In this document: positions 3,034 through 28,887 of the stretch, piece after piece | Layout: each line of letters opens with the position of its first letter | Position numbering within the stretch: position 1 is the first letter of the stretch | Virus record (IMG/VR): IMGVR_UViG_3300030085_004759 | Coordinates: 1 to 28,887 of that record | Source: a virus | DNA: 28,887 nt | Strand: one strand, 5' to 3' | Program-made: the position numbers and the translations under genes | Notes under the pieces: model-generated | The model's input: only the letters and a program-made list of their open reading frames with translations | Told to the model about the DNA's origin: nothing | The model's database searches: none

Positions 3034-3066
3034 TACGGTACTACTAAAATCCAGATAACTACAGTT

Positions 3067-7202: not shown

Positions 7203-7221
7203 TCAGAGTATTTAATTTAAG

Positions 7222-7848: not shown

Positions 7849-8657
7849 AATATTCCTTTATCCATCAGTATCTCTATTGCTTTGCCATTTTCAATCTCTT
7901 CAGGAGTGAATTGCTGGTATGCAAGGCTGTACAACCAAGGTTCTGGTCCTCCATAATAGGGATTCTCGATATCTGATAACTCAGTGTTGGCTACGTCTAC
8001 TGCGAAACTCTTTTGATCACAGAACACTGGTATACCTTCACATATTGCCTCAACTGCCGCTATGGAACAACTGGTCACTACACACCAGGCTTCTTTCAGA
8101 TCCTCGGATAGGGGTACCTTTGCCTCACTTGGTCCTGAAGTACCCCTTCCCCTAGGCTTGTGTCGAAGTCTGATAGGTCGGTCCGTATACCTTTTTATTT
8201 GTTCTATGGTCTCATCTGTCCATTTAGGTCTACCTAAGTATTCATTGATTCCTGTTGAGCTCGGACAAACTAAAACGTGCTTTCCAGCGAAGTTAGGTGC
8301 TTTTATCTTTATGTTAAACTTGTCAAACCTATCCGACTTACAATCTTTGATGTATGGAACATGTATTGCATTTTTGCAGATACGCCAGTAATGGTTGTCT
8401 GGCTTCAAATTATTATTATCAAATCTTCCAAAATAGGGCGTATCGGTAAACCAATAAGGATGATTCCTCGATTCCAATTTTTGTATCATTTCTCTGTTGT
8501 TGTTTACGAATCCCCAAAACATTGCATTCGGAAGTGGATCATTTGCCTTGATATTATCTAAGGTCTGATGTTGGTCCGGCCATGATTTCATTACTCCTTT
8601 GAAGACTTCCCAAGCCTTACTTTTCATATTATTAAACGGTACGTAAATTGTTAACAT
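7845..8657 (-). CDS. GT-B-like glycosyltransferase, paralogue family member A
   Basis: 270-residue soluble protein. Its C-terminal half matches three others in this island (12326-13141, 13131-14111, 16751-17620). Shared blocks in order are YTDRPIRLR, LKEAWCVVTSCS, EAICEGIPVF, then LSDIENPYY and a final LAYQQFTPEEIENG. The VVT-x-CS, E-A-x3-GIP pattern resembles the nucleotide-sugar-binding C-terminal domain of GT-B capsule-type transferases (KpsC/KpsS-like), where a small residue and Glu contact the donor. That assignment is inference; the family relation among the four proteins is directly visible. The start overlaps the SGNH gene by 26 bases and the stop overlaps the FkbM start. Confidence 0.68.
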   Translation of the reverse strand: MLTIYVPFNNMKSKAWEVFKGVMKSWPDQHQTLDNIKANDPLPNAMFWGFVNNNREMIQKLESRNHPYWFTDTPYFGRFDNNNLKPDNHYWRICKNAIHVPYIKDCKSDRFDKFNIKIKAPNFAGKHVLVCPSSTGINEYLGRPKWTDETIEQIKRYTDRPIRLRHKPRGRGTSGPSEAKVPLSEDLKEAWCVVTSCSIAAVEAICEGIPVFCDQKSFAVDVANTELSDIENPYYGGPEPWLYSLAYQQFTPEEIENGKAIEILMDKGIL

Positions 8658-9303
8658 TAATATAATCTTTTAGTTGCTGTGCCCATTGTTTGTGCCCATC
8701 TCCGGAAGGATGTGGATCATTGGGACTCACCACGAGACTTTTTTCTTGTATATACTCTAAGTGACTCTGCTCCGGAGAAAAAAAGCGTTTCATATCAATT
8801 GCATTGGAGAAAGTTTGAAAGTCCTTGATTTGCATATTCACAAAATTCGGCAAAGAATTATACATCACATATGGTATATGATGTAATTTAAAATAATTTT
8901 GTAAATCTAAAACATTATCCAGGTATTTCATTATCAAAGTGTTTTCAATATCCCAGCCTGTTTGCCTTTTGATAAAATCCGTTTGTTCAGTCAATTTCCA
9001 ACTACGCCAGGTCAAATCCATATTCGGTATCCTTCCCTTTTTCCAACCATCGTCTGTGATATAGTCATTTCTCATCATGCTAGACCATCCGATCAAAGCG
9101 AAAGTGTCTTTGTGCCCGTTCTGTTCGAACCATAATTTAGTCGTAAAACTAATACGTTCATTTCCTCGGCCTCCCATGGCAAGATTAGATTTTATATCCA
9201 TGTCCAGCAGAGATGCCAGTTCGATGCCGGCATGAGTGTTAACTCCGTCCTTGGGCCTAGGAGTCAAGAACGAACAACCATTAATGAACATATTGGTCAA
9301 CAT
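8632..9303 (-). CDS. SGNH/GDSL-type hydrolase-like protein
   Basis: 223-residue protein with the block pattern of SGNH hydrolases. Block I is FINGCSFLT (candidate nucleophile Ser11). Next comes a glycine/asparagine block NLAMGGRGNERI, and block V is DPHPSGDGHKQWA, with the Asp and His of the catalytic pair. In glycan clusters such enzymes usually add or remove O-acetyl groups. It is the first gene of the leftward block and starts directly at the divergent promoter gap. A second in-frame ATG at 9291 would shorten it by four residues. No signal peptide is visible, so it probably acts in the cytoplasm. Confidence 0.72.
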   Translation of the reverse strand: MLTNMFINGCSFLTPRPKDGVNTHAGIELASLLDMDIKSNLAMGGRGNERISFTTKLWFEQNGHKDTFALIGWSSMMRNDYITDDGWKKGRIPNMDLTWRSWKLTEQTDFIKRQTGWDIENTLIMKYLDNVLDLQNYFKLHHIPYVMYNSLPNFVNMQIKDFQTFSNAIDMKRFFSPEQSHLEYIQEKSLVVSPNDPHPSGDGHKQWAQQLKDYINVNNLRTV

Positions 9304-9341
9304 AATACAATAATTATAGTATACTTACTGGCAAAATACAA
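9293..9341. promoter_or_regulatory. Back-to-back sigma70-like promoters in a 40-bp divergent gap
   Basis: The gap 9304-9343 separates the leftward (SGNH) and rightward (GT61) blocks. On the minus strand, TTGTAT (9341-9336) is followed after 17 bases by a perfect TATAAT (9318-9313). On the plus strand, TTGGTC (9293-9298) is followed after 16 bases by TATAGT (9315-9320), with TATACT overlapping at 9320-9325. The two -10 elements overlap, so polymerase binding in the two directions should be mutually exclusive. The TATAGTATACT core resembles the TATAATATACT of the promoter at 18801-18828. Read from sequence only; transcription starts are not mapped. Confidence 0.6.
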
Positions 9342-9343
9342 TC

Positions 9344-10426
9344 ATGAAGAACATAGATTCAATCAAGTATTTCTTAGATAGATGGGAGACCGTAGACAAC
9401 AGTTACGATTACTCTGTACCTTACCATGAGGACATTGATCCCCACTTCACAAGTTTACCAACTTTTGTTGCAGAGTTTCACAACTGCAAAATTCACAGTG
9501 CGCCTGTGCTTACTACAATGGAAAACAAACTGATAACAAGTTACGTATGGGGACTGACTCATGAAAGCAAATTTAAACCTCATAAGTCACACAACCTTTG
9601 GAATGAATGGGGAGATAATGTTGAGATAGACATGTCTCCCGTTTCTCAAGAATTCCACGAACGGTACACTTATGTGTGGCTACCTATAGACGAAGCAAGT
9701 GTAAACAATCCATGGCACATTTGGATTGATGTGATTAGTAAATTTAGATTGATGGAGAAGAGATGGTCAACAAACTTTGCAAGGTATTGCTACATCCTGG
9801 CCAACGAAAGCAAGTACATGGAACGAGTAATCAAAGAGTTATTTCCTGATGTTAAGGTAGTTGTCATGCCAAAAAATAAAGTATGGCAATTCAAGCACCT
9901 GCTTGTGCCTAGTCTAAGCAACTCCAAAGACGGAGTAATCACGCCACATCTGGCACAATGGTTAAGACATTTCAAAGGACTAACAGGACTTAAAAGCGTT
10001 ACGCCACACAGGAAAATTATTGTGCTACGTCCAGGTGCTAAAACGAGAAAAATAAAAAACTCAGACGAACTGATTTTGGCCCTCAAAGGATGGGAGACAG
10101 TTGCTTTAGAGCAAATGACCATCAAAGAACAAATGAGGACTTTCGCAGAGGCCACACATATTGTTGCGGCTCATGGAGCAGGACTGGTCAACCTTTTATG
10201 GTGTAAGCCGGGAACTAAAGTTGTTGAGATTCAAGATCCAAAAATGATACATAAAAAAGTTTATCCTGTGCTGTCTCATCATTTAGATCTACATCACAAA
10301 TTATATTTGGCAAACACGGTACCTATACCGTTGGAAAAAAATAAAAAACCAAAAGGAATAAAAAGATTGTCTGACTTGATAGACTTTCAGGTCAATGTTG
10401 CAGACTTGGTCAAACACTTAGATTAA
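9344..10426 (+). CDS. GT61-family glycosyltransferase
   Basis: 360-residue protein of the DUF563/GT61 type, a GT-B-related family of glycan xylosyl-, arabinosyl- and GlcNAc-transferases. The signature is in the C-terminal half: KIIVLRPGAKTRKIKN, then VALEQMTIKEQM, then HIVAAHGAGLVNLLWC (AAHGAGL at residues 275-281), then KVVEI. This order is diagnostic. It heads the rightward block and lies 40 bp from the divergent SGNH gene. A-rich sequence and no clear Shine-Dalgarno precede the ATG. No signal anchor is visible, unlike eukaryotic members. Donor sugar is unknown. Confidence 0.85.
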   Translation: MKNIDSIKYFLDRWETVDNSYDYSVPYHEDIDPHFTSLPTFVAEFHNCKIHSAPVLTTMENKLITSYVWGLTHESKFKPHKSHNLWNEWGDNVEIDMSPVSQEFHERYTYVWLPIDEASVNNPWHIWIDVISKFRLMEKRWSTNFARYCYILANESKYMERVIKELFPDVKVVVMPKNKVWQFKHLLVPSLSNSKDGVITPHLAQWLRHFKGLTGLKSVTPHRKIIVLRPGAKTRKIKNSDELILALKGWETVALEQMTIKEQMRTFAEATHIVAAHGAGLVNLLWCKPGTKVVEIQDPKMIHKKVYPVLSHHLDLHHKLYLANTVPIPLEKNKKPKGIKRLSDLIDFQVNVADLVKHLD

Positions 10427-10435
10427 ATATTGAGA

Positions 10436-11335
10436 ATGAAAATAAAAGTAATTACATCTTACAAACCAGGATGCTGGAATGAATATGCCAAGAAGGGGAT
10501 CGAGTCAATGGCTGAACAGTTTCCAAAAGAGATTGATTTGGTTGTGTATGCTGAAGAACCAAAACCAGAATGCAAGTACGATAGGATAAAGTGGATTGAC
10601 CTTAACACCGCAGAGCCTGAACTTACTGCCTTCAAGCAAAGGCATAAGGACGATCCAGTAGCCAATGGAAAATTACAAACAAAGGTTAATGGCGTGCGAA
10701 GAGTTCCAGAACTACAAACGCTCGGAGGCTCGGATAAGAACAAGGAATCTTTTTTATGGAACGCAGTGCGTTTTTCTAATAAAGTTTTTTGTGTTGTTAA
10801 TGGACTACGGAATTCAAAAGGGTACGACTATGTGGTCTGGATAGATGCTGACACCTTTTCATTCCGGCCTGTGCCATTTAGTTTCTTTGAAAATTTATTA
10901 CCAAAAGATACAATGGTCACTTACCTTGGTAGAGAAAATCCAACGTTGGGAGATGGCGGCAAATACCCAGAGTGTGGCTTTGTTGGTTATAATTGCAACC
11001 ATCCAGAAATTCAGAATTTTATAAATGACTGGGAACAACTATATGTGACCGATGATGTTTTTAAAATTCTAGAATGGCATGACAGTTACGTTTTTTGGCA
11101 CCTTACAAAAATATATAGGAAAGAGAAAAATGTCAAAGTAAATGATATTGGTTATTGGAAAGGTGTGAAAGGACACCATGTGTTCGTGAACAGCGAACTG
11201 GGTCTGTACATGGACCACATGAAAGGTAATCGTAAAACAAGAGGCACAAGTGTCAAAAATGATCTAAGGCACAATCCAAAAGCCAAAGTTACTGTTCATG
11301 AAATAGATTACTGGAAAAAAGTACCACCGGCCTAA
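10436..11335 (+). CDS. DxD glycosyltransferase-like protein, tandem paralogue 1
   Basis: 299-residue GT-A-like protein beginning MKIKVITSYKPG, with DxD motif Asp137-Ala-Asp139 in VVWIDADTFSF. Other blocks are DDPVANG, WNAVRF, YLGRE, ECGFVGYN, and a C-terminal KGVKGHHVFVN followed by GLYMDHMKG. The same blocks in the same order occur in 15894-16754, so the two are paralogues. I chose the ATG at 10436 over a TTG six bases upstream because it aligns with the paralogue's start. The ATG is preceded by TTAAATA (10423-10429), which includes the GT61 stop codon; no Shine-Dalgarno is seen. The family probably transfers a sugar using a metal-bound nucleotide donor. Confidence 0.75.
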   Translation: MKIKVITSYKPGCWNEYAKKGIESMAEQFPKEIDLVVYAEEPKPECKYDRIKWIDLNTAEPELTAFKQRHKDDPVANGKLQTKVNGVRRVPELQTLGGSDKNKESFLWNAVRFSNKVFCVVNGLRNSKGYDYVVWIDADTFSFRPVPFSFFENLLPKDTMVTYLGRENPTLGDGGKYPECGFVGYNCNHPEIQNFINDWEQLYVTDDVFKILEWHDSYVFWHLTKIYRKEKNVKVNDIGYWKGVKGHHVFVNSELGLYMDHMKGNRKTRGTSVKNDLRHNPKAKVTVHEIDYWKKVPPA

Positions 11336-11355
11336 ACAAACATAATTACATTAAA

Positions 11356-12339
11356 ATGAAAAAAATTGCATTTGTAACTGGGATGACAGGACAAGACGGT
11401 CCTTACCTAGCAAAACATTTATTAGAAAAAGACTATAAAGTTTATGGTTTGGTAAAAAGATATAGCAATCCAAATCTGTCAAACCTAAACTACTTAGGAA
11501 TAGAAAATGATGTTGAACTTATCACAGGAGACATCACTGATGATGCCAACATGAATCATTTGGTAAGAACAATTAAGCCAAACGAATTTTACAATTTAGC
11601 CGCACAGAGTTTCGTAGGTGCGAGTTGGGAACTAAACAAACAGACCACAGAAGTGAATGCCATGGGCGTGTTAAATGTTCTCAATGCCATAGTCAATCAA
11701 AATCCAATTACAAGATTTTATCAGGCAAGTACTAGTGAACTCTATGGCAATTCAAATGTAGAGGGAGTGCAGGATGAGAACACACCGTTACATCCTCGTT
11801 CACCTTATGGAGTATCTAAATTATATGCCTATTGGATGACAATAAATTTTAGAGAAAGTTATAGTATACACGCTTCAAATGGAATACTTTTTAATCATGA
11901 ATCTCCGATTAGAGGTAAAGAATTTGTTACAAGGAAAATCACAGACGGCGTGGCACGGATTAAACTAGGACTTTCAAAAAAACTTACACTAGGAAACTTA
12001 GACGCAAAGAGGGATTGGGGTTTTGCTGGAGACTATGTTGAAGCGATGTACACCATGGTGCAACAACAAGATCCAGGAGACTATGTGATATGCACAGGCG
12101 TGCAACATTCTATAAGAGAATTACTCACCCATGCTTTTAGGACAGCAGGAATTGACGACTGGGAGCAATATGTTGAGTCAGATCCTCGTTACAAACGTCC
12201 AGCAGAAGTACACGCACTGCATGGTTCATACGCAAAAGCAAAACAGAAATTAGGGTGGGAACCTAAAACCGAGTTCAAAGACATGATTGCTTTGATGGTT
12301 AACGAAGATATAAAGAGATTGTCCCATGATATACGTTAG
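11356..12339 (+). CDS. gmd: GDP-mannose 4,6-dehydratase
   Basis: Converts GDP-D-mannose to GDP-4-keto-6-deoxy-D-mannose, the branch point for GDP-fucose, GDP-rhamnose and GDP-perosamine. The 327-residue protein has the NADP-binding TGMTGQDG (glycines 9, 12 and 15). It has the family stretch AAQSFVGASWE and the catalytic set in ASTSELYG (Thr126, Glu128) plus Tyr151/Lys155 (YGVSKLYAYW). NHESP and LGNLDAKRDWGFAGDYVEAM complete the signature. All catalytic residues are present and the length is close to cellular Gmd. No obvious GDP-fucose synthase or PLP aminotransferase lies in the window, so the next step must come from the host, from elsewhere in the phage, or from the epimerase at 6198-7202. 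It overlaps the next gene by 14 bases. Confidence 0.94.
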   Translation: MKKIAFVTGMTGQDGPYLAKHLLEKDYKVYGLVKRYSNPNLSNLNYLGIENDVELITGDITDDANMNHLVRTIKPNEFYNLAAQSFVGASWELNKQTTEVNAMGVLNVLNAIVNQNPITRFYQASTSELYGNSNVEGVQDENTPLHPRSPYGVSKLYAYWMTINFRESYSIHASNGILFNHESPIRGKEFVTRKITDGVARIKLGLSKKLTLGNLDAKRDWGFAGDYVEAMYTMVQQQDPGDYVICTGVQHSIRELLTHAFRTAGIDDWEQYVESDPRYKRPAEVHALHGSYAKAKQKLGWEPKTEFKDMIALMVNEDIKRLSHDIR

Positions 12340-13141
12340 TGCCACTAACAGGAAACTTACTGAAAAATATGTTGACTGGGCAGTTCGAGGCTTACCTAAT
12401 GCTAAAAAACTTGCCCCTACTGAGATAATCAAACAAAAAGATTGTACCAAAGCAGTAATGTTTGGTGTGCTACGTGGAACGCACCTCGTGTACAACTGGG
12501 CAAAAAAGAATAAAATCGATTTCTATTATATGGATCGTCCGTACTGGGGAGAAACAAGAAACGCACCTTTCTTTAGCAAAATAGTCAAAAACAATCATCT
12601 GAAGAATTGGTTTGAACACAGGCCAGACGATAGATTCAAAAAAACATTTCCATGGCCTATAAATCCATGGAAAAAAGATGGAAAGAACATAATAGTATGC
12701 CCACCGTCGAATGCGATGAAAGAATTTTTTGGTGTGCATGATTGGCTAGACAAAACAGTATCAACCCTACAGGCCAACACAGATCGTCCGATAATAATCA
12801 AAAACAAAGGATACAATCCTATCATGGGGTATGACAAGGATGGGGGAATGATAGTGACGGGTAAAGACGACAGTGCACCAAGCGGACCTATTGATTGGAG
12901 TGAGGCATTTGCTATCGTGACTTTCAATTCAAATATTACCCTAGAGGCCACAACAAGAGGCATACCTTGTTTTACAGATAAACATAATGCATGTGCACCT
13001 ATATCAGAAACAGACTTCAGCAAAATTGAAACACCAAAATATGCTGACAGAGAACCGTTGTATCATTCAATGGCCTATGGACAGTTCACAGCAGACGAAA
13101 TTAAAAATGGATACGCATGGAGAATACTAGATGAAAGTTGA
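12326..13141 (+). CDS. GT-B-like glycosyltransferase, paralogue family member B
   Basis: 271-residue member of the four-protein family. Matching blocks are NTDRPIIIK, then WSEAFAIVTFNSNITLEA, then RGIPCF, then FSKIETPKYADREPLYHSMA and QFTADEIKNGYAWRIL. It is closest in plan to member A (7845-8657): both begin with a short IYV strand and have a TDRPI-centred middle. The N-terminal segment contains FYYMDRPYWGETR, matching the YWFTDTPYFGR of member A, so the similarity extends beyond the C-terminal domain. Overlaps with gmd (14 bases) and with the next paralogue (11 bases) show translational coupling. Sugar transfer is inferred from fold-like pattern and context. Confidence 0.65.
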   Translation: MIYVSATNRKLTEKYVDWAVRGLPNAKKLAPTEIIKQKDCTKAVMFGVLRGTHLVYNWAKKNKIDFYYMDRPYWGETRNAPFFSKIVKNNHLKNWFEHRPDDRFKKTFPWPINPWKKDGKNIIVCPPSNAMKEFFGVHDWLDKTVSTLQANTDRPIIIKNKGYNPIMGYDKDGGMIVTGKDDSAPSGPIDWSEAFAIVTFNSNITLEATTRGIPCFTDKHNACAPISETDFSKIETPKYADREPLYHSMAYGQFTADEIKNGYAWRILDES

Positions 13142-14111
13142 AATATTTAGAAGGACAGTAAAAGACAGACGTAGGGGAGCAAGTTGGGACTTACTACAAT
13201 ACATGGCAGAAGGAGTGAAGGCATGCGGAGACGATCCTGTTATTGTCAACGAAAACATGACCGGTCCTTGGCAAAAAGACGAAATGGAACCAACAGCGCC
13301 GATAGGTTGCATGTTTGGATATGGTGGGACAAATCAAAGACATCACACCAAAGGGAGAAGGTTAGACCTTGTTGAACGGGCCAAAAAGAAAGGCATATAC
13401 ATTATCACATTCGACGGTGGATTGCTTTCTAGTTTTGGGAATGTGCATGGGCCAAATCATCATTGGAGAGTATCATTATACTCGCCCATGAACAACGGAA
13501 ACTTTCTCAGCGACAACTCACCCGCAGACAGATGGGAAGCGGCAAAAGCCAGATGGAATGTGAAAAGCGAACCATGGAGGAAATCCAACCAGACAGATCC
13601 AATAATGTTTGTGCTTCAACCAAAAGACAACTGGAGCATGAACGAACTTGATCCAATAGATTGGTTCAAAGGTGTGTATGACAAACTGAGACCAGCGACA
13701 GATAGGAAGTTTATTGTGAGGCCACATCCTAATCATGTGGTTGCAATAGAAAACAGATTAAATGAATTTCCGGACGATGTCGAGGTGCATATTGGACAAA
13801 AATATTTCCAAGGTGATGAAAAAAAATATTATAGGTTTCATTTTCAGGAAGCAATTAGTAACTGCCATGCTGTGGTTACACACAATTCCACTGCAAGTGT
13901 AGATTCATGTGTTAGAGGTATCCCAACTTTTGTTACTTCGGATCTTGCATTATGTTGGCCTGTCGCCAACACAAATTTAAATGACATAGAGACTCCGAAG
14001 TACCCAGATAGGCAACAATGGCTGTATGACTTAGGTTACAAGTTATGGAGTGAAAAAGAAATAAGAGATGGTACCGTATTCAAAAGATTCAAAACAAAGT
14101 TAGGACTTTAA
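13131..14111 (+). CDS. GT-B-like glycosyltransferase, paralogue family member C
   Basis: 326 residues, the longest of the four-protein family. The shared C-terminal blocks are ATDRKFIVRPHPN, AISNCHAVVTHNSTASVDS, VRGIPTFV, LNDIETPKYPDRQQWLYDLGY and WSEKEIRDG. The RPHPN element, also present as RPHPR in member D, is common near the active site of capsule-type GT-B enzymes. The N-terminal half is different from members A and B and includes a GYGG segment and a histidine-rich stretch NQRHHTKGRR. It abuts member B, giving two adjacent family genes. The asparagine synthetase gene follows after one base. Confidence 0.66.
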   Translation: MKVEIFRRTVKDRRRGASWDLLQYMAEGVKACGDDPVIVNENMTGPWQKDEMEPTAPIGCMFGYGGTNQRHHTKGRRLDLVERAKKKGIYIITFDGGLLSSFGNVHGPNHHWRVSLYSPMNNGNFLSDNSPADRWEAAKARWNVKSEPWRKSNQTDPIMFVLQPKDNWSMNELDPIDWFKGVYDKLRPATDRKFIVRPHPNHVVAIENRLNEFPDDVEVHIGQKYFQGDEKKYYRFHFQEAISNCHAVVTHNSTASVDSCVRGIPTFVTSDLALCWPVANTNLNDIETPKYPDRQQWLYDLGYKLWSEKEIRDGTVFKRFKTKLGL

Positions 14112-14112
14112 G

Positions 14113-15879
14113 ATGTGTGGAATATACGGAATAACCACGGGTGATCAAAAATTCATAAACGATTACATGCATACTTGTAATCATAGAGGACCCGACGGTG
14201 CACATAAAATTGAAGTAGTAAACAAAAAGTCAGGCAACACTGTAACCCTAGGGCATAATCTTTTAAGTATAATGTCTGAACCAGGTAAATCGCAACAACC
14301 TTGGCTTACTCCAAAACACAATTATCTAGTTTACAATGGTGAAATATTCAATTACTACGAACTCAAAGACAAATATAAAGACTTTGTAGACACAACAGGT
14401 TGCGACACAGAATTACTTGCCTGGGGGTTGGACAAATTTGGGTTGTCATTCATTGATGAAATAGATTCTATGCATGGCTTCGCTTACTACGAAGTCAGTA
14501 AAGACAAACTGACCTTAAGCAGAGACCATGCAGGCATTAAGCCAGTCTACTATGCACAAATAAAAGAAGGATTGGTATTTGGTTCTGAGATAAAGGGAAT
14601 GTTAGATAAAGTTCCTGGAAGTAGAAAAATGGATAACCTTGCTGTTAGTTTTATGGCGAGGACAGGAATTAATGCCCTGCGTAATACTTTCTTCACAGGC
14701 ATAAAAAAATTGTTGGCCGGAGAAACAATAGTGTATGATATCGCAAAAAGGCAAATTGTAAAAACACATAGGGTGCATATCAAATCCACTAATACTAAAA
14801 CATTTGACCCTGAAGAATTTAGGACCATGGTTAAAAAGACTGTAGAAATGTGTTCAATAGGACGAAGGAAGATCGGGGTGTTCTTGAGCGGTGGACTGGA
14901 CTCAAGTGTTGTTGCATACGAACTCAAACAGATTAAGGGAGAGGCAAACACATTCACCAATAGAATGAATCCCAATGTACATGTAGACGAGGACTACAAC
15001 AGTGATGCGAATTGTGCCATGGCTCTTGCTTCAAAACAAGACTTTAACCACACGGAAGTTATAATCACTCCAGAAGCCTACATGGACAGTTGGGAAGACA
15101 GTGTGTATTACATGGAACAGCCTGTTTACAATCCAAGCATGTCTATGTATTGTTTCACTAATAAGTTTTTGGCTGACAAGGAAATAATTGTAACTCTAGC
15201 CGGCGACATGGGTGATGAAATATTAGCCGGCTATCCAAAATACTGGAAGATGAGAAACCCACAATGGTTGAAAAAACAAATAGGAAAAACAAAAATGGAG
15301 AGTTGGGATGATGTACTACTGATGTGGCTGAATAGAATAAAACGTCCTTTGAACCTGACAGATAATCCTATCAGTGATGAAATACTTTTACAAGAATTCA
15401 AAAAATGCTATCCTGGAGATTTATGGAACCCAAATGATCCCATAGGTTCTCACATGGCCTTAGACTGCGTAGCACAGGTACCTGAAGAAATGTTCAGTAG
15501 GAATGACAAATACGGCATGGCCTACAGCATGGAGGGACGATTTCCGTTAGCCACTAAGACATTCATGAGGTATTGCATGAGCATACACACAAATGAAAAA
15601 TTAGGTCCAAATAAGTCAGACACAAAAATTCTAATTAAAAATGCATACAAAGGAATACTGCCAAAAGTAATCTTGAATAAAACAAAAACAGGCTGGACAG
15701 TTCCTGTCGGGCATTGGCTGACAACCAACACGAGTGCCAAGTTATCAGACTTCTACCAGGCCAGAACAGGAAGCAATTCAGGATTGAATGTTACAAAAGC
15801 AAGTCAGAAGGCCGGTAAGGCTCTTGTCCCGGCGTGGATAGTAAGTGATTGGATCAAAAAATACAACATGACAAGGTAA
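14113..15879 (+). CDS. asnB: Glutamine-dependent asparagine synthetase-like amidotransferase
   Basis: 588 residues, two domains. The N-terminal Ntn glutaminase starts MCGIYG, so Cys2 becomes the nucleophile after removal of Met, and has HNLLSI, NHRGPDG and VYNGEIFN. The C-terminal synthetase domain has the ATP-pyrophosphatase loop SGGLDSS starting at residue 259, LAGDMGDEILAGY, and the late KTKTGWTVPVGHW. All key residues look intact. Cellular AsnB makes asparagine from aspartate. Homologues in surface-polysaccharide clusters amidate uronic acids, which fits the position between glycosyltransferase genes. Both roles remain possible. Start at 14113 is fixed by Cys2. Confidence 0.9.
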   Translation: MCGIYGITTGDQKFINDYMHTCNHRGPDGAHKIEVVNKKSGNTVTLGHNLLSIMSEPGKSQQPWLTPKHNYLVYNGEIFNYYELKDKYKDFVDTTGCDTELLAWGLDKFGLSFIDEIDSMHGFAYYEVSKDKLTLSRDHAGIKPVYYAQIKEGLVFGSEIKGMLDKVPGSRKMDNLAVSFMARTGINALRNTFFTGIKKLLAGETIVYDIAKRQIVKTHRVHIKSTNTKTFDPEEFRTMVKKTVEMCSIGRRKIGVFLSGGLDSSVVAYELKQIKGEANTFTNRMNPNVHVDEDYNSDANCAMALASKQDFNHTEVIITPEAYMDSWEDSVYYMEQPVYNPSMSMYCFTNKFLADKEIIVTLAGDMGDEILAGYPKYWKMRNPQWLKKQIGKTKMESWDDVLLMWLNRIKRPLNLTDNPISDEILLQEFKKCYPGDLWNPNDPIGSHMALDCVAQVPEEMFSRNDKYGMAYSMEGRFPLATKTFMRYCMSIHTNEKLGPNKSDTKILIKNAYKGILPKVILNKTKTGWTVPVGHWLTTNTSAKLSDFYQARTGSNSGLNVTKASQKAGKALVPAWIVSDWIKKYNMTR

Positions 15880-15893
15880 AGTAAATATTCACT

Positions 15894-16754
15894 ATGAAGA
15901 TAAAAGTTATTACATCTTATAAACCGGGCACATGGGACCAGTACGCCAAAAAGGCGGTAGACAGTGTGCTGAAGCACTGGCCAACAGACACCCACGTCAC
16001 AGTATATCACGAAGCACAAACACAGGACATTTTCGAACACCCGAGGTTAGAATGGATAGACGTACATCAGGCCCAACCAGAACTAGTTAAATTTAAAAAC
16101 AAATATAAGGACGATCCGGTGGCCAACGGTGAGATACAAGAAATAGCAAACGGTGTAAGGCGCCCTGGGCCTATGCCATCCAAAGGATCGTTTCAATGGA
16201 ACGCGGTTAGATTTGCAAATAAAGTTTTCTGTGTCACACACGCCTTAAGCAATTCTAATGGCTATGATTATGTTATATGGTTAGATGCAGACACTTATTC
16301 ATTCCGTGACATGCCAACAAGTTTTTTACAGGAGATACTACCCAGAGACAGTTTATTGACTTACCTAGGTAGAGGAGGAGAAGATCCAGAATGTGGATTT
16401 GTTGGATATAATCTTAATCACCCTGAAGTACAAAATTTAAACTCGGACTGGGAGAACCTTTACATCAATGATGGTATATTTGGCCTAACTTCAGGATGGA
16501 CAGACTGTTCGTCATTAATACACCTATCTAACAAGTACCAGAAAGAAAAAAATATTAAAATAAATGATATAGGACATGCCAGCGGAGTCAAAGGACACCA
16601 CGTATTCATTAATAGTGTTTTAGGCTTATATATGGATCATTTTAAAGGAAAACGTAAACAATCAGGCACTAGTTGGAAAAAAGATTTTTGGCCACAGTCT
16701 AAGGCCGAAATAAAAAATATTACACAACTGGACTATTGGAAAAAATTAAAATGA
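15894..16754 (+). CDS. DxD glycosyltransferase-like protein, tandem paralogue 2
   Basis: 286-residue paralogue of 10436-11335. It starts with the identical MKIKVITSYKPG and keeps DDPVANG, WNAVRFANKVFCV, YLGRG, ECGFVGYN, GVKGHHVFIN and GLYMDHFKG. The DxD is Asp131-Ala-Asp133 in VIWLDADTYSF. The region between DDPVANG and WNAVRF is shorter than in copy 1, and the segment after the glycine-rich ECGFVGYN block differs. The start is preceded by GTAAATA (15881-15887), six bases from the ATG, as in copy 1. The stop overlaps the next start as ATGA. It is probably a second transferase with changed acceptor or donor preference. Confidence 0.75.
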   Translation: MKIKVITSYKPGTWDQYAKKAVDSVLKHWPTDTHVTVYHEAQTQDIFEHPRLEWIDVHQAQPELVKFKNKYKDDPVANGEIQEIANGVRRPGPMPSKGSFQWNAVRFANKVFCVTHALSNSNGYDYVIWLDADTYSFRDMPTSFLQEILPRDSLLTYLGRGGEDPECGFVGYNLNHPEVQNLNSDWENLYINDGIFGLTSGWTDCSSLIHLSNKYQKEKNIKINDIGHASGVKGHHVFINSVLGLYMDHFKGKRKQSGTSWKKDFWPQSKAEIKNITQLDYWKKLK

Positions 16755-17620
16755 AACTAGAAGTTTGGACACAACACGGCCCACTGAACTCGGAACCTAT
16801 ATTCAAAGCATTCATCAAAAGTTTACAAGATGCAGGCGATTCGGTTATACTTAACAGAGAAAGCGATGCGGACGTGGCCGTGATATGGAGTGTCTTATGG
16901 CTAGGAAGGATGCGTAACTATAAAAAAATATGGCAAAGATTCAAGCAAAATAACAAACCAGTCATAGTTCTGGAAGTTGGAGGACTTAGAAGGAATAAAA
17001 GTTTCAAAGTGGCAATTAATGGTGTGAACAGAAAAGCCGACTTCGCAAATCAAAATGTTGACGATAAACGCTGGCCGTTATTCAAACACGAGTTGAAACC
17101 GTGGCAACAGAGGGGACAAACAATAATACTGCTTGGTCAACACCATGCATCAGAACAATGGGCCGGACTGCCAGACATGAGAACATGGTTTGAATCACAA
17201 GTGCAACAAATAAGGAAATACACCGATCGTCCAATACAGATACGTCCACACCCCCGAAATAATATCGGCTTTGACGTAAAGAAATTTAAAAATGTAACTT
17301 TAAAAAACCCAGTGATCGATACTAGCAAAATAGACGACACAGACTTCAAGGACACTCTGAAAGACGCATGGGCAGTTGTGAATCATAGTTCTAATCCAGC
17401 CATGGAAGCGGTGATAAATGGCATTCCGGTGTTTGTATCAGAAGCAAGTCTATGTTATGAAGTTGGCAACAGATCATTAGAAACGATCAACAATCCTGCC
17501 ATGCCTGATAGGACAGCATGGGCAAATAAACTTTCTTACACCGAGTGGTTTCCTGATGAAATACAAAAAGGCCTGCCATGGAGAAGAATTAAATCCAGGC
17601 TTGAGGAGGCATACCTTTGA
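16751..17620 (+). CDS. GT-B-like glycosyltransferase, paralogue family member D
   Basis: 289-residue fourth member of the family. Shared blocks are YTDRPIQIRPHPR, LKDAWAVVNHSSNPAMEA, INGIPVFV, LETINNPAMPDRTAWAN and LSYTEWFPDEIQKGLPWRRI. The N-terminal half contains VIVLEVGGLRRN and a GQHHASEQW segment. ATG 16751 is preferred over the TTG at 16736 because it forms ATGA with the preceding stop and gives a clean first strand MKLEVWTQHG. Together with 15894-16754 it forms a transferase pair of the same two families seen earlier in the operon. Confidence 0.67.
   Translation: MKLEVWTQHGPLNSEPIFKAFIKSLQDAGDSVILNRESDADVAVIWSVLWLGRMRNYKKIWQRFKQNNKPVIVLEVGGLRRNKSFKVAINGVNRKADFANQNVDDKRWPLFKHELKPWQQRGQTIILLGQHHASEQWAGLPDMRTWFESQVQQIRKYTDRPIQIRPHPRNNIGFDVKKFKNVTLKNPVIDTSKIDDTDFKDTLKDAWAVVNHSSNPAMEAVINGIPVFVSEASLCYEVGNRSLETINNPAMPDRTAWANKLSYTEWFPDEIQKGLPWRRIKSRLEEAYL
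17603..17619 (+). promoter_or_regulatory. Strong Shine-Dalgarno supporting a TTG start
   Basis: GAGGAGG at 17603-17609 lies seven bases before TTG 17617-17619, inside the end of the upstream gene. No ATG occurs in frame before the conserved GNGPS motif of the downstream protein, so this site decides the start. Such a strong site is unusual in this window, where most junctions rely on overlap. Confidence 0.8.
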
Positions 17621-18342
17621 TCAAACCAATAGAATTCAAACCATACACTGGAGAAACTGTTAACACAGTCCTGAGGATTAAAAACGGCAAACGCACACAA
17701 GAGACAGAATGGTACCCTGATAAGGTAAAAGCAGTGCCGAGAGGAAACGCATATTGCATAGGCAATGGCCCGTCACGTAAAGATTTTGATCTTAACAAAT
17801 TAAAATCAACAGGACAGACATACGGCTGTAACGCTTTATACAGAGACTTCCTTCCAGACTTTATTTTCAGCGTTGACGCAAAGATGACAGCACAGATGTG
17901 TGCGGATCAGGTAGGCAGGAAGACCATCCATTACGCTCCTTCCTTGGAAGTAAACAGAAAACATGCCAAAGGTATGTTACATCTGATCCCAAACAATCCA
18001 CACTGGATTTCAGGCAATCAGGCCTTCTGGACAGCGGGTGTGCATGGCCACAAAAACATATATCTCATAGGATACGATTTCAGAGAATATGGAAAAGGAA
18101 AACTGAATAACATATACCAAGACACAGAAAATTATGGAGAGAGGCATGGCGATTCAATCATGGACGGCTGGCTTAAACAGTTCAGAGACATGATAAAAAT
18201 GAGACCATATGTCAATTACACCGTGGTGCATGACAATCCACCCGAATACTTACATTATCTACAGACGGGCGAGGATCTTGGTAACACTAAAGTTATAAGT
18301 TACAATGAATTTGAAAAGGTGCTAACACCTAGCAAGGTTTAA
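17617..18342 (+). CDS. GNGPS-motif protein (DUF115/MptE-like or GT42-like)
   Basis: 241 residues, TTG start. After a 40-residue leader it has NAYCIGNGPS (GNGPS at 49-53), then DLNKLKSTGQTYGCNALY and DFIFSVDAKM, and later NIYLIGYDF. This glycine-rich nucleotide-binding pattern is shared by MptE-like DUF115 proteins and by the GT42 sialyltransferase-like family. In glycan clusters it points to a nucleotide-sugar-using transferase. A pterin pyrophosphokinase-type reaction is the alternative. It is the last gene of the rightward glycan block, and its 3' end overlaps the convergent SprT-like gene by 21 bases. Confidence 0.68.
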   Translation: MIKPIEFKPYTGETVNTVLRIKNGKRTQETEWYPDKVKAVPRGNAYCIGNGPSRKDFDLNKLKSTGQTYGCNALYRDFLPDFIFSVDAKMTAQMCADQVGRKTIHYAPSLEVNRKHAKGMLHLIPNNPHWISGNQAFWTAGVHGHKNIYLIGYDFREYGKGKLNNIYQDTENYGERHGDSIMDGWLKQFRDMIKMRPYVNYTVVHDNPPEYLHYLQTGEDLGNTKVISYNEFEKVLTPSKV

Positions 18343-18798
18343 ACCTGCACGTTCAAATTTAGTTCTCCAAGCAAAGAAATTTTTGTTGTGATTTGAATAA
18401 GGATCTTGCAACCAGGTCATTTGGTAAAGATGCACCATTTCGTGTGCCAGTGTCTCCACAAAGTCTTTCCATTTTGGAAATTTACAATGTAATTCGATAT
18501 AATAATCAACCTCTATGTGATAGGGAATGACCCTTTGATCAAATTTACCTTTTGGAGTTTTCCTATTGTCCCAATTGGCCACACATCTTCCCCAGTCTTT
18601 GTGTAGTTTTCTAATGTGTAAAGGTACCATTGGTAATCTGCTGTTGAACAAGCAACGGTTGATGTGTCTGAACCATTGATATGCTTGTTGTTCAGTTGGT
18701 CTAAAACCTTTTTTATTTTTGTATCTAGTCTCAGTATTTTCCAACCTAATCTTCAGTTGTTTTCTTACATTGACTTTTTTTACTCTTATCTTTTTCAT
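18322..18798 (-). CDS. SprT-like zinc metalloprotease
   Basis: 158 residues from ATG 18798; an in-frame TTG at 18816 would add six. The zinc site HEMVH is at residues 119-123, in TLAHEMVHLYQ. A third ligand His137 lies in HNKNFFAW, matching the HGxxF-like element of SprT/Spartan proteins. Upstream elements include LHIRKLHKDWGRC and a basic N-terminus rich in Lys and Arg that could bind DNA. Cellular Spartan relatives cut DNA-protein crosslinks; bacterial and phage SprT roles are poorly known. It is transcribed against both neighbours, and its start region overlaps the strong promoter of the uvsW operon. Confidence 0.83.
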   Translation of the reverse strand: MKKIRVKKVNVRKQLKIRLENTETRYKNKKGFRPTEQQAYQWFRHINRCLFNSRLPMVPLHIRKLHKDWGRCVANWDNRKTPKGKFDQRVIPYHIEVDYYIELHCKFPKWKDFVETLAHEMVHLYQMTWLQDPYSNHNKNFFAWRTKFERAGLNLARC

Positions 18799-22374: not shown

Positions 22375-22807
22375 AAAATTTTTTGATTTGAGGAATGGAC
22401 TGAAAGCAGTAGACTTCAGGAACAAAGATTACTTTGATAGAATAGACGACAAAGAGAAGTCGCTGTACTCTCCATACATGCTAATGAGATATGTGTCAAG
22501 CACGTCATCAAAGGATCAATTTTATGTAGAGCACTACGTAGAAATGGTCAACGAGTGTGTGAACAAACACTGCTTCACACTAGGCAAACACAAGAAGTTG
22601 TTATGGATACTAACTGCTATGTGTGGCGCACTTCAGCAACAGTTTCACCCATGGATCAAGCCAATGAAGCGTGTGCCAAACAAGAGTCTAAAAAAACTAC
22701 AACAGATATACCCGACCTGGAAAGAGTCTGATCTAGAAACATTAGATAAAGTAATAACGGATAGAGAACTTGAGGAACTGATAGAAGCACATGGCATCAA
22801 CGAATAA
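22355..22807 (+). CDS. Conserved phage protein, possibly gp62-like clamp-loader subunit
   Basis: 150 residues, helical. Features are LKAVDFRNKDYFDRI, LYSPYMLMRYVSS, KHKKLLWILTAMC and QFHPWIKPMKR. The order Y-x-PY-x2-x-R, then K-x-L-x-W/Y, then an F-x2-W-x-K element recalls the small clamp-loader subunit gp62 of T4-like phages, whose known versions have PF/Y-x-IN-R and KRF-x2-W. No gp44 is next to it, which weakens that reading. A conserved hypothetical protein is the safe call. Overlaps both neighbours (20 and 17 bases). Confidence 0.65.
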   Translation: MPAEKNRKFFDLRNGLKAVDFRNKDYFDRIDDKEKSLYSPYMLMRYVSSTSSKDQFYVEHYVEMVNECVNKHCFTLGKHKKLLWILTAMCGALQQQFHPWIKPMKRVPNKSLKKLQQIYPTWKESDLETLDKVITDRELEELIEAHGINE

Positions 22808-23474
22808 ATGCACATACTGTGGGAAAGTTTTTGCAAAGGCAAGGACACTTCAGGTACACTTGTGTGAACCAAAACGTAGATATCTACAACGTGATGAGAA
22901 ATGGGTGGTAAATGCTTTCATGGTGTTTCAGAGATTCTATCAGATACATCAACACAACTCAAAACCAAAAACATACGACGACTTTGTAAAAAGTTCTTAC
23001 TACAATGCATTTGTTAAGTTTGGCCGATTCATCATGCACATCAATCCATTGTACCCAGAGAAGTACATAGACTATGTTTTACAATCCAAAGTAAAATTAG
23101 ATCACTGGGCAAGGGATGATCTCTATGAACTTTATCTAGTAGAGGCCTTAAAGACCGAACCCGTGGAAGCCGCACTACAAAGGAGTATAGCAACCATGAT
23201 GGATTGGGCGACAGAACAAAATGCACAGTGGTCGGACTACTTCAGATTGGTGAACACGAATAGGGCAGTGGCACACATCCAACAGGGCAAGATAAGTCCA
23301 TGGTTGTTGTTAGGTTGCAACGCAGGCAAAAGGATGTTAAAATCTTTTAACGACGAACAATTACAAATGATTGAAAAATTTATTAATCCAAGTTTCTGGC
23401 CAAGCAAGATGAAAAGTTATCCAGCGGATCTAATGTTGGTACAGGACACAGCGAAGGAGGCCAAAATTGTCTAA
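22791..23474 (+). CDS. Zinc-finger-bearing conserved phage protein
   Basis: 227 residues. The N-terminus carries a C2H2-type half finger: Cys7, Cys10, Phe14, Leu20 and His23 at classical spacing (C-x2-C-x3-F-x5-L-x2-H), with Cys25 as the likely fourth ligand instead of a second His. The rest is helical and rich in aromatics (WVVNAFMVFQRFYQ, FVKFGRFIMHINP), with a C-terminal NPSFWPSKMKSYPAD. The finger suggests nucleic-acid or protein binding. Position between the uvsW group and the mini-DnaE gene suggests a replication role. It overlaps the next gene by 8 bases. Confidence 0.72.
   Translation: MASTNKCTYCGKVFAKARTLQVHLCEPKRRYLQRDEKWVVNAFMVFQRFYQIHQHNSKPKTYDDFVKSSYYNAFVKFGRFIMHINPLYPEKYIDYVLQSKVKLDHWARDDLYELYLVEALKTEPVEAALQRSIATMMDWATEQNAQWSDYFRLVNTNRAVAHIQQGKISPWLLLGCNAGKRMLKSFNDEQLQMIEKFINPSFWPSKMKSYPADLMLVQDTAKEAKIV
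23454..23469 (+). promoter_or_regulatory. Strong Shine-Dalgarno supporting a TTG start
   Basis: AAGGAGG at 23454-23460 precedes TTG 23467-23469 by six bases, within the end of the zinc-finger gene. The first in-frame ATG of the downstream gene lies about 35 codons later, so the TTG is the likely start. Confidence 0.78.
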
Positions 23475-23700
23475 GATAAATTTAGAAGTTGCAGATAACT
23501 TAGAATTCGAACATGGAGATATAGCAATCACTATCAAACCCGATGGCACAATAGGAAAGATTATAATGCCAAAGATGGATGAAGAAATAAGAAACACAGA
23601 AGGATACAGGAAAATGCTTGACGTGGTTGAAGTATTGCAACCGGGGGCAAAAGAAGAATTTATAAAACATGATACAAAAGAAAAGGGAAGTGTACACTAA
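23467..23700 (+). CDS. Small conserved phage protein, TTG start
   Basis: 77 residues, acidic to neutral. The N-terminal half has FEHGDIAITIKPDGTIGKIIMP, a beta-hairpin-like pattern; the rest is helical (KMLDVVEVLQPGAKEEF). I recognise no catalytic motif. Its stop shares one base with the start of the mini-DnaE gene (TAATG), so the two are tightly coupled and may form a functional pair. Function unknown. Confidence 0.72.
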   Translation: MSKINLEVADNLEFEHGDIAITIKPDGTIGKIIMPKMDEEIRNTEGYRKMLDVVEVLQPGAKEEFIKHDTKEKGSVH

Positions 23701-24290
23701 TGCCTGATGTAGACATAGACTTCTTTGACAGAGATAACACACTCAAGTTATTCAAACACACTCCTGCATCTATGATAAAAGATGGCAAGTCTGAGAAACA
23801 TAAGACCGGAGTGTACTTCCATGCGGTGCCAGAACATCCGGTCACGGGACACGCAAGTTTGGATTATAAACAAGCAGAGGACAGAGGGTACTTCAAGATA
23901 GATTGTCTAAACGTGAACATCTACAAGGATGTCAAGTCAGAGCAGGAACTTGTTGAACTGATGATACAGGAACCAGATTGGGACATGCTGAAAGATCCAA
24001 AGATAGTGGAAAACCTTTTCCACCTAAATGGACATTACAACATAGTGTCCAAACTTGAACCAAAAACAATAGAACAACTTGCGGCTGTGTTGGCCATAAT
24101 ACGTCCTGCCAAGAGACATCTAATGCACAAGGACTGGGTGGATGTGATGAAAGAAGTCTGGGTGAAACCAACTGACGGATCGTACTTCTTCAAGAAGTCA
24201 CACGCTGTGGCATACGCACAAGCCATAGTGGTACAGATGAATCTGATGCAAAAGGCTAAATATAGTTTTGATGCAACATCAAAAAAATAA
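23700..24290 (+). CDS. Miniature DNA polymerase III alpha (DnaE)-like protein
   Basis: 196 residues that carry, in order, short blocks of the bacterial C-family polymerase. PDVDIDF at 2-8 corresponds to the DnaE palm motif PDxDxDF. KHKTGVYFHAVP at 34-44 corresponds to KHAGGVVIAP. GYFKIDCLN at 63-71 corresponds to GLVKxDFLGL with the third catalytic Asp (here Asp68). LFHLNGHYNIVSKLEP at 106-121 and LAAVLAIIRP at 127-136 correspond to FQLES..M..LIK.LQP and IALVALFRPGP. FFKKSHAVAYA at 163-173 corresponds to FNKSHSAAYA. DnaE itself is over 1,000 residues, so PHP, beta-binding and most fingers are absent. The candidate metal-binding aspartates are retained. Polymerase, DNA-binding or decoy roles are all open. 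Confidence 0.72.
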   Translation: MPDVDIDFFDRDNTLKLFKHTPASMIKDGKSEKHKTGVYFHAVPEHPVTGHASLDYKQAEDRGYFKIDCLNVNIYKDVKSEQELVELMIQEPDWDMLKDPKIVENLFHLNGHYNIVSKLEPKTIEQLAAVLAIIRPAKRHLMHKDWVDVMKEVWVKPTDGSYFFKKSHAVAYAQAIVVQMNLMQKAKYSFDATSKK

Positions 24291-24433: not shown

Positions 24434-24808
24434 CTAGATAGGTTTTCTAACTAATTGGATTGTCCTTCTCTTCACCCGTTTCTTTGAAATTTCAGAAAGT
24501 TTGACAGTAGGCCCATGCACTATCTCAACATCTTTTGAGTTTAAAGTAACCAACGTTGTACGAAAGTATTTGAACTCGCCCTTGAGAAATATGTTGATTG
24601 GTAATTTACGATTGGATTCATGCCACCAAGTTTCCCCACACTTCAGAAATCTCATCTTATCCTGTGGCATCATCAGTCTGCCATAATCATAGAAACTGAT
24701 CACGTTTGCATCTTCATTCTGTATTATGCCCACATACTCCAAATCGCCCTTTCTGATCAGGCTCAAAAATGGGAACTTGTCCCGGAGAGTGTTAAAAATT
24801 TCGTTCAT
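24434..24808 (-). CDS. Conserved T4-like phage protein, function unknown
   Basis: 124 residues, basic C-terminus. It starts MNEIFNTLRDKFPFLS and has the patterns LEYVGIIQNEDANVISFYDY, WWHESNRKLPINIFLKGEF and KKRVKRRTIQLVRKP. From memory, proteins with this WW-ESNR-PINI-L pattern and Arg/Lys-rich tail are common in T4-like marine phages without known function. It is the only minus-strand gene in this part of the window and converges on the mini-DnaE gene. Its ATG faces the late promoter of the structural gene across a 32-bp gap. Confidence 0.75.
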   Translation of the reverse strand: MNEIFNTLRDKFPFLSLIRKGDLEYVGIIQNEDANVISFYDYGRLMMPQDKMRFLKCGETWWHESNRKLPINIFLKGEFKYFRTTLVTLNSKDVEIVHGPTVKLSEISKKRVKRRTIQLVRKPI

Positions 24809-25651: not shown

Positions 25652-26665
25652 ATGAACCTGATCCAGAATACAATTCTGACAAGTCTGCCTGCGGGCAGAA
25701 AGAAAACTCCCAGCGGATGGATAAGTTTCAACGCACCGTGTTGTGTACACAATGGAGAGACAGCAGACAAAAAGAAACGTGGTGGCTTAATGACAAGTGC
25801 AGATGGTACAGTCAGTTATCACTGTTTCAACTGTGGATTCAAAGCAAGTTATGTAATAGGACGTAAACTGACCTACAAGATGAGGCAGTTCATGGGATAC
25901 ATTGGCATACCTGATGACACAATACGTAAACTAGCAATAGAGGCCATGCGTGAAGAAGAAGGCGATGCCAAATACGAAAAGAAAAAATTTGTTACATTTA
26001 AAAAGAAAGAATTGCCGAAACATACAAGGTCACTGGGTGAGTGGTTGGAAGAATATACAGTAGGAACAATGACAACTGAACAACAAAACAAAATTGATAA
26101 CCTATTGAATTATCTAGCAGGAAGAGGTATAGGTGCAGATTGGTATGACTTCATGTATTCATCAGACAAGTATTGGGACGTTGATAGAAGATTGTTGATA
26201 CCATTTTACTGGCGTGGTGATATCGTCGGCTTTACAGGAAGGATGTTTGAACAATCTGACAAAGTAAAATACTACACAGACGTACAACCAGGATACGTTT
26301 TTAACATGGATGCACAGGATTGGACAAGAAAGTTTGTTATAGTTACTGAAGGTCCTTTTGATGCAATAACCGTTTCTGGTGTCAGTATACTTGGTAGTGA
26401 GATAAATGAAACACAAAGAGAACTTATTGATGGTCTCGGTAGAAAGGTAATTGTTGTGCCTGACAGAGACGCTCCAGGAGAGAAACTGATAAACCAGGCT
26501 ATAGAATTTGGATGGAGTGTTGCATTTCCAGAATGGGATAAAACGGTTGGCGATGTAGCGGATGCTGTGTTAAAATATGGTAGACTGTTTACTATTCAAT
26601 CAATATTGAAGACCACAGAGTCGAGTAAACTTAAAATAGATTTAAAGAGAAAGATGTATGGCTGA
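25652..26665 (+). CDS. gp61-like DNA primase
   Basis: 337-residue primase of the T4 gp61 type, which lays RNA primers with the gp41 helicase. The N-terminal zinc-binding domain has Cys30/Cys31-x-His33 (APCCVHNG) and Cys58/Cys61 (YHCFNCGF). The Toprim catalytic core has VTEGPFDAIT with Glu233 and the metal site PDRDAPG with Asp271 and Asp273. Between them, RRLLIPFYWRGDIVGFTGR is the usual basic strand pair of primases. Its 3' end overlaps the helicase start by 8 bases, as expected for subunits made together. T4 gp61 is of similar length. Confidence 0.9.
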   Translation: MNLIQNTILTSLPAGRKKTPSGWISFNAPCCVHNGETADKKKRGGLMTSADGTVSYHCFNCGFKASYVIGRKLTYKMRQFMGYIGIPDDTIRKLAIEAMREEEGDAKYEKKKFVTFKKKELPKHTRSLGEWLEEYTVGTMTTEQQNKIDNLLNYLAGRGIGADWYDFMYSSDKYWDVDRRLLIPFYWRGDIVGFTGRMFEQSDKVKYYTDVQPGYVFNMDAQDWTRKFVIVTEGPFDAITVSGVSILGSEINETQRELIDGLGRKVIVVPDRDAPGEKLINQAIEFGWSVAFPEWDKTVGDVADAVLKYGRLFTIQSILKTTESSKLKIDLKRKMYG

Positions 26666-28100
26666 ATACACATTTGATGTACAAAAACTTTATATAGAGA
26701 TGCTTTTAGCAGACGCTGAGTCGTTTGCTAGGGCACAGAATATATTCAAACCAGAATCGTTTGATCGTAAACTGCAACCAATTGCGAAGTTTGTAAAAGA
26801 GTACATGGACGAGTATAAGGTTATGCCTGACGTTGAACAGGTAAACGCTAAACACGACATCAAATTGAAATCAGCAAAAGATCTGGATCCAAGCCATTTC
26901 AACTGGCTACTAGACGAATTTGAAACATTCTCGAGACACAAGGCACTAGAACACGCAATACTGCAATCAGCAGACATGCTTGAAAAGGGAGACTATGCAC
27001 CTGTTGAAGACATGGTGAAGGAGGCAGTGAATGTTGGACTGACACGTGATCTCGGCACAGACTACTTTGAGGATCCCAAGGGAAGACTTGAGGCACTCAA
27101 GGCAAACAACGGACAGATCAGCACTGGCTGGAACAACTTAGACAAGAAACTGTTTGGCGGTTTCAACCGTGGAGAACTAAACATCTTTGCAGGTGGATCA
27201 GGAGCAGGTAAGAGTTTGTTCTTACAGAATCTTGCGGTGAACTGGGCACAGGCTGGTCTGAACGTTTGTTACATATCTTTTGAATTAAGTGAGCAACTGA
27301 CTGCCATGAGGCTTGATGCAATGATGACTAACATTCCAACTAAGAAAGTATTTCCGGAAATAGAAAATGTTGAGATGAAAGTTAAGATGCTGGCAAAGAA
27401 ATCAGGAAACTTACAGATCAAATATTTGCCAAGTGGTAGCAACGTGCTTGACGTTAGAACATATCTGAAAGAATTAGAACTAAAAAACAAAAAGAAAATT
27501 GATTGCATACTGATAGACTACTTGGATCTCATGATGCCAAAGAGCAAGAGAATATCACCAGCGGACTTGTTCATAAAAGACAAATACGTTTCAGAGGAGT
27601 TGAGAAACTTGGTCGTGGAGAAACAGTGTGTGTTGGCAACAGCATCACAGTTGAACAGGGCATCTGTTGAAGAGATAGAGTTTGATCACAGTCACATATC
27701 AGGCGGATTATCCAAGATACAAACAGCAGATAACGTGATTGGTATATTCACAAGTAGGGCCATGAAGGAACGTGGAAGATACCAGATTCAGTTCATGAAG
27801 ACGAGATCAAGTTCTGGTGTTGGACAAAAAGTAGATTTAGAATTTGATGTTGATAGTCTACGTATCAGAGACTTGGCAGACGATCCTGAATATAAACAGT
27901 TTGACAAACAGAGAAGTACAATATATGACTCGTTGAAGCAGACATCCAAAGTTTCAACATCAGATGGTACACCAAAAGATGCAAGAAATGACGTGCCGGA
28001 TCCTCGCAAAGGTGACACAATAGGTAAAGTAAAAGCCAACGTAGAAGGCGGCAAACTGAGACAACTTCTAAACGAACTGCACTCAGATGAAGAACAGTAA
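26658..28100 (+). CDS. gp41-like replicative DNA helicase (DnaB family)
   Basis: 480-residue hexameric 5'-3' helicase. The N-terminal helical domain (1-130) is of the size that contacts primase. The RecA-like core begins QISTGWNNLDKKLFGGFNRGEL. The Walker A loop is GGSGAGKS at 179-186 and the Walker B strand is CILIDYLDLM around residues 284-293. Later are ATASQLNR and SGGLSKIQTADNVIG, the DnaB motif 4 region, and a KTRSSSG arginine-finger-like loop. The C-terminal tail of about 60 residues is charged and low in complexity, a likely protein-contact tail. It overlaps primase upstream and nth downstream (14 bases). Confidence 0.93.
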   Translation: MAEYTFDVQKLYIEMLLADAESFARAQNIFKPESFDRKLQPIAKFVKEYMDEYKVMPDVEQVNAKHDIKLKSAKDLDPSHFNWLLDEFETFSRHKALEHAILQSADMLEKGDYAPVEDMVKEAVNVGLTRDLGTDYFEDPKGRLEALKANNGQISTGWNNLDKKLFGGFNRGELNIFAGGSGAGKSLFLQNLAVNWAQAGLNVCYISFELSEQLTAMRLDAMMTNIPTKKVFPEIENVEMKVKMLAKKSGNLQIKYLPSGSNVLDVRTYLKELELKNKKKIDCILIDYLDLMMPKSKRISPADLFIKDKYVSEELRNLVVEKQCVLATASQLNRASVEEIEFDHSHISGGLSKIQTADNVIGIFTSRAMKERGRYQIQFMKTRSSSGVGQKVDLEFDVDSLRIRDLADDPEYKQFDKQRSTIYDSLKQTSKVSTSDGTPKDARNDVPDPRKGDTIGKVKANVEGGKLRQLLNELHSDEEQ

Positions 28101-28830: not shown

Positions 28831-28887
28831 ATGAAAGACAAAGAACTGAACGACATAACAAGGCTGTACGATAGATTCATTAGGCAA
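28831..28887 (+). CDS. Partial CDS at window edge, function unknown
   Basis: Nineteen codons from ATG 28831 to the window end, reading MKDKELNDITRLYDRFIRQ with no stop. Charged, helical start. The short N-terminal pattern (a basic-acidic turn and then I-x-RLYD-x-F) resembles the openings of several small proteins in marine T4-like phages, but nothing can be assigned. It follows a 60-bp gap with a late-promoter-like octamer, so it may be a late gene. Confidence 0.55.
   Translation, partial: MKDKELNDITRLYDRFIRQ

Follow-up and report, generated by a model that had tools for sequence, protein, structure and literature searches.

At positions 23700..24290 (plus strand) of the window, by which we mean the whole 28,887-nucleotide stretch of viral DNA that was analysed, an open reading frame of 196 residues plus stop, with an ATG start, carries motifs of the bacterial replicative polymerase α subunit, and the question is whether so short a protein is a polymerase in its own right, a part of one or the remains of one. 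A preliminary description had listed these motifs in order along a "mini-DnaE", and they do occur in that order within the frame. In a profile search, residues 3-187 matched PHROG 11778 ("DNA polymerase", 197 positions) with E = 1.8e-66, and phrog_405, a 1190-residue phage Pol III family, matched with E 2e-6. The profile match that had been proposed as a check was thus obtained with the phage families and not with Pfam, where DNA_pol3_finger scored 15.8 bits, below its cut-off of 22; the homologue in phage XacN1 clears that cut-off with 22.9 bits. A sequence search of the PDB gave MutH as its sole match, which we judged to be due to chance. Relatives at 36-56% identity were found by tblastn in 63 phage records, nearly all from large T4-like phages of 140-490 kb, including Atu_ph07, Phosso, PA5oct/Paride, Vibrio 2.275.O, XacN1, SCTP-2, RAS14, RaK2, PBECO4, CBB, GAP32 and Slicko01, and at least 445 stretches in IMG/VR encode one. 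Among bacterial and archaeal genome assemblies there were matches nowhere beyond 11 contigs in metagenome bins, which we read as binned phage DNA. Within the clade of the window the dN/dS ratio is ∼0.04, which indicates strong purifying selection and no decay, and neither frequent stops nor relaxed selection was seen among the clade's sequences. The frame is therefore genuine, and its product is strongly conserved and related to the catalytic core of C-family (Pol III α) polymerases.

Residues were mapped by profile alignment to eight bacterial DnaE sequences. The catalytic motif PDVDIDF (23703..23723) corresponds by motif identity to P400-D401-F-D403-V-D405-F of E. coli DnaE, placing D3, D5 and D7 on D401, D403 and D405, respectively. 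The catalytic triad of E. coli DnaE is 401/403/555, as the preliminary description also states, and the alignment therefore makes the phage triad D3/D5/D68; the phage residues named in that description, D5/D7/D68, are one motif position off. D68, the third catalytic aspartate, lies with K66 in the motif KID (23895..23903), the two residues aligning by hhalign with D555 and K553, each conserved in 206 of 206 sequences. The hhalign columns also match HKTG (23799..23810) to H511-G514, with H34 and G37 invariant (206/206), and R135-P136 of RPAK (24102..24113) to the finger residues R639-P640, with R135, P136 and K138 kept in 205/205. KKSHAVAY (24192..24215), which closes the reduced fingers, corresponds by motif identity to NKSHSAAY of DnaE (757-764); here H168 is found in 205/205 and K166 in 196/205 sequences. 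All of these motifs are on the plus strand, and across 206 distinct sequences D3, D5, D7, H34, G37, P44, K66 and D68 never vary, so that the description of a drastically shortened C-family core that retains its catalytic aspartates holds for D3, D5 and D68. Its thumb motif does not: the thumb is absent, KHKTG being the H511-G514 element downstream of it, and the LFHL..IIRP and FFKKSHAVAYA segments are both finger elements.

All 196 residues are covered by the palm/finger match, comprising the second palm segment and the reduced fingers, with the other Pol III domains not attached. Compared with a complete DnaE or PolC, the protein matches DnaE 399-794 only, and the thumb is missing from that interval. 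What had been described as a self-contained mini-DnaE is thus missing the initial palm half and the GRGS motif in it, for which there is a separate conserved gene; the protein alone is not a complete mini-polymerase but the C-terminal half (C-half) of a split one. The other half (N-half) is a separate protein of about 175 residues carrying the palm GRGS motif that is absent from the C-half chain of the window. The available text of the phage CBB paper mentions a "truncated Pol III alpha", CBB_328 (PMC5259590), which matches Pfam DNA_pol3_alpha (2e-8) and whose translation ends ...GLGRGSSVSSYCLYLIGLHLVDSIKYELDVNEFLKW, the palm segment that precedes PDxDxDF. CBB_328 is the N-half partner of the C-half family; in that text it is described singly, and the C-half of the same phage, CBB_287, is not linked to it there (PMC5259590).

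In profile-profile comparisons the N-half matches DnaE 272-393 (E 1.6e-9), the match ending at N393, and the C-half matches bacterial DnaE 509-641 (E 4.8e-6); compared with each other, the two halves show no similarity. In 113 distinct N-halves the invariant residues (CBB numbering) are R102, E106, G137, G139, R140, G141 and S142, so that GRGS never varies. The aligned N-halves all terminate at E-F-L/F, and the frames that match the N-half profile to its end meet a stop 0-6 residues beyond it in all but four cases, these four being long frames that encode polymerases of 563-575 residues.

Such a constant end point bears on how the halves might be joined. A split C-family gene is also found in cyanobacteria, where the catalytic subunit DnaE likewise comes from two genes and is completed by a split intein, and the phage halves could be spliced together post-translationally in the same manner. 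However, with N-halves that end at EFLK within 6 residues and a C-half that starts MPDVDIDF there is no room for intein parts, and the phage enzyme, which is far smaller and has no intein, is divided within the palm and so at a different place from the cyanobacterial one. We consider joining by an intein scarcely conceivable.

AlphaFold2 models built from alignments of the loci gave a pLDDT of 92.2 for the C-half of the window and of 90.8 for an N-half from a 328-kb contig. The structural alignment suggested for the C-half model bears out its assignment: the fifteen best matches are all Pol III α or PolC (Z 10.0-6.5, with 191-195 of the 196 residues aligned), and the next protein, at Z 3.8, is unrelated. 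For residues 78-179 of the N-half, the fourteen best matches are again Pol III α or PolC (Z 12.1-7.6, the next being 2.5), and the first 77 residues remained unmatched in this comparison. Where an entry is common to both lists, the two segments adjoin without overlap: the N-half and C-half lie, respectively, on 279-395 and 399-794 of the E. coli enzyme (2hnh), 306-415 and 419-820 of that of M. tuberculosis (5lew), 295-458 and 461-850 of 4iqj, and 825-967 and 971-1309 of PolC (3f2b). In BFVD, the significant matches that bear a name are C-family polymerases, with modest TM-scores.

Each of the 11 cultured jumbo phages with a C-half that were tested also has a separate N-half frame, of 169-213 residues, and a C-half is present in nine of the ten largest N-half contigs searched in both directions. 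The sole exception, a 359-kb contig with a clear N-half in which a C-half was not detected, is either incomplete or holds a truly unpaired half. These data also bear on the suggestion that the C-half acts by itself, either binding template or serving as a decoy in competition with the polymerase of the host. Although the C-half has a small gene of its own and the protein is predicted to fold well without a partner, a decoy needs neither the metal-binding aspartates nor K66, which are invariant in 206 sequences, and a matching N-half occurs in every cultured phage tested; we regard action by the C-half alone as improbable.

The two genes are far apart in the genome, at distances from about 15 kb in XacN1 to more than 200 kb in Phosso, with 230 kb between them on a linear 328-kb contig. 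In the cultured relatives the N-half lies close to a clamp-loader gene, and primase and helicase genes lie near the C-half in most phages inspected, XacN1 and RAS14 being different. The window follows the majority, with a primase at 25652-26665 (plus strand) and a DnaB-type gp41 helicase at 26658-28100 (plus strand). The claim that phages of this type carry a B-family polymerase holds for sequenced relatives: such a gene is present in 22 records, all 11 cultured phages among them, and in two metagenome-assembled genome (MAG) bins with C-halves of the window clade. It was not found in four relatives of 52-91 kb, which are fragments.

Immediately upstream of the C-half, at 22791..23474 (plus strand), the window encodes a C2H2 zinc-finger protein of phrog_11058 (function unknown), which in many relatives precedes the C-half by 1-3 genes. 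It was seen in the window, Atu_ph07, Phosso, Paride, Vibrio 2.275.O, RaK2 and CBB, whereas the upstream gene tested in XacN1, RAS14, SCTP-2 and Slicko01 was not recognised as such a protein; it may be functionally linked to the C-half. On the other side, at 24434-24808 (minus strand), a 124-residue gene of phrog_11637 (unknown) runs convergent to the C-half, and the relatives inspected have a convergent gene of similar size at or next to this place. Further away, at 3000-18350, a long block read by eye lies between a UvsX/RecA-like gene and a UvsW helicase and contains apparent glycosyltransferase, epimerase, methyltransferase and asparagine-synthase genes.

The contigs closest to the window (68-100% identity) are fragments of 91 kb or less in which a separate N-half was not found. 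No contig with both halves was found for the window clade, as is expected if more than 100 kb separates the genes. N-halves do occur on other contigs of two genome bins that hold a C-half of the clade, at 92% and 72% identity. The candidate that shares a bin with the 92% identical C-half (locus L549) has a GroES-like gene and a gene for an RFC-type clamp loader nearby, which is also the setting in cultured relatives, and has relatives at 75 loci in IMG/VR. Of the 66 samples with these relatives, 22 also contain C-halves of the window clade, compared with 10 of 169 samples for the other N-halves (p=2.6e-7); another large N-half cluster shares 5 of 37, a difference from the L549 relatives with p=0.036. 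A habitat in common may explain part of this sharing. The candidate is likely to be the partner N-half of the clade, although what links it to the C-half is a common bin and common samples and not a single contig. Two other candidates were dropped: a further N-half cluster was too rare, and what had seemed a long fused N-half in contigs of the clade is actually a different gene, encoding a polymerase of 563 residues.

The first 19 codons of this gene, for a separate compact and complete C-family polymerase, are found at 28831..28887 (plus strand), where the window ends. The gene is full length in close relatives (14019-15710 of locus L063, for instance, and complete in two further loci) and follows endonuclease III in seven of the 16 window-clade loci that extend 8 kb downstream. 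It appears as an optional gene at one fixed place in close relatives, one of which retains only a 26-residue match to it. Its product holds palm and finger domains in one chain (Pfam 9e-44 and 6e-15) and gave no PHP match in Pfam. The gene is absent from cultured relatives, and its best match among phage records is LR756508, a 484-kb uncultured phage that has neither of the split halves. As the two genes occur in the same contigs, the C-half could be thought what is left of a full-length DnaE in decay, for example of this 563-residue polymerase, and a C-family remnant is what the preliminary description had called it. However, the profile similarity between the two proteins is weak, the C-half is widely conserved with synteny in common, and its dN/dS is 0.045 with and 0.044 without the 563-residue gene; a remnant is very improbable. 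Equal selection in both settings further implies that the 563-residue polymerase is no substitute for the split enzyme, of which it is not a part.

We therefore read the C-half as the C-terminal subunit of a minimal C-family nucleotidyltransferase that T4-like jumbo phages encode in two genes, with a probability of roughly 0.78. The data show homology, the position of the split, conserved residues, co-occurrence of the halves and predicted folds; physical assembly, catalysis and the auxiliary role are what we infer. The N-half would supply the initial palm segment, in which GRGS binds the nucleotide, and the C-half the metal-binding aspartates D3, D5 and D68 together with K66 and the shortened fingers, the two chains associating non-covalently to form a single palm active site of the Pol-β type. 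The enzyme would be auxiliary to the B-family replicase, its most likely role being primer extension or short-gap filling in company with the primase, helicase and clamp loader of the phage.

The split enzyme has GRGS, PDxDxDF, KxD, the finger RP and KSHxxAY in common with bacterial DnaE and PolC, and the same predicted fold, but it comes as two proteins without the PHP, thumb, OB, clamp-binding and HhH parts, and its fingers between RP and KSH are reduced from about 110 to 25 residues. The missing finger interval holds the DnaE-invariant Y686-M691, R709 and K714-K715, and the likewise DnaE-invariant R390 aligns with a glutamate in the N-halves. In ternary structures the finger arginines contact the triphosphate. 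With these residues and the thumb missing and R390 replaced by Glu, the incoming nucleotide and the duplex must be bound differently, and polymerase activity is not assured. Hence the pair might be active as a nucleotidyltransferase without being a template-directed DNA polymerase, adding one or a few nucleotides or using another substrate, as the perfectly kept metal site and the absence of both the thumb (DnaE about 433-510) and the DnaE-invariant finger residues between 641 and 754 would suggest. We find this unlikely, if well short of negligible, given that conservation of the finger RP and KSHxxAY is nearly as strict as that of the metal site and that most relatives have the genes next to those for primase, helicase and clamp loader. 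A tentative extension of the two-gene reading, on which we would not wager at even odds, is that the pair is the smallest known C-family polymerase, thumbless and holding its nucleotide differently, and that some phages of the marine clade each have three DNA polymerases of two families, namely the split pair, the B-family replicase and the complete 563-residue C-family polymerase.

For jumbo phages of group 2.2, a minimal Pol III in two parts was described from sequence analysis by Iyer et al. in 2021 (PMC7824862), and our results on the split enzyme agree with theirs. There, as in the cultured relatives analysed here, two separate proteins come from distant genes in phages with a B-family polymerase, the N-terminal part being assigned to nucleotide binding and the C-terminal part to binding of metal and template (PMC7824862). 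The arrangement has thus been known since 2021, and the window is a further, marine case of it, differing from the phages of that study in belonging to a marine uncultured clade, some close relatives of which add the complete 563-residue C-family polymerase. In our literature search we found no later paper on the split enzyme and no experiment on it. The present analysis adds, from hundreds of viruses, a residue-by-residue record of conservation, together with the constancy of the point of division and the complementary structural matches to solved Pol III, as well as the likely N-half of the marine clade and its coexisting 563-residue polymerase. With the partner now named at residue level, a direct test is easy. 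If the halves do form a working enzyme, ∼300 catalytic residues would be the minimum for C-family DNA synthesis, and if that enzyme is active it would be a simple model, in line with the proposal of Iyer et al., of how the bacterial replicase originated (PMC7824862). A family so abundant in marine viruses, and strictly conserved in RaK2, PA5oct and Paride, should matter to jumbo phages.
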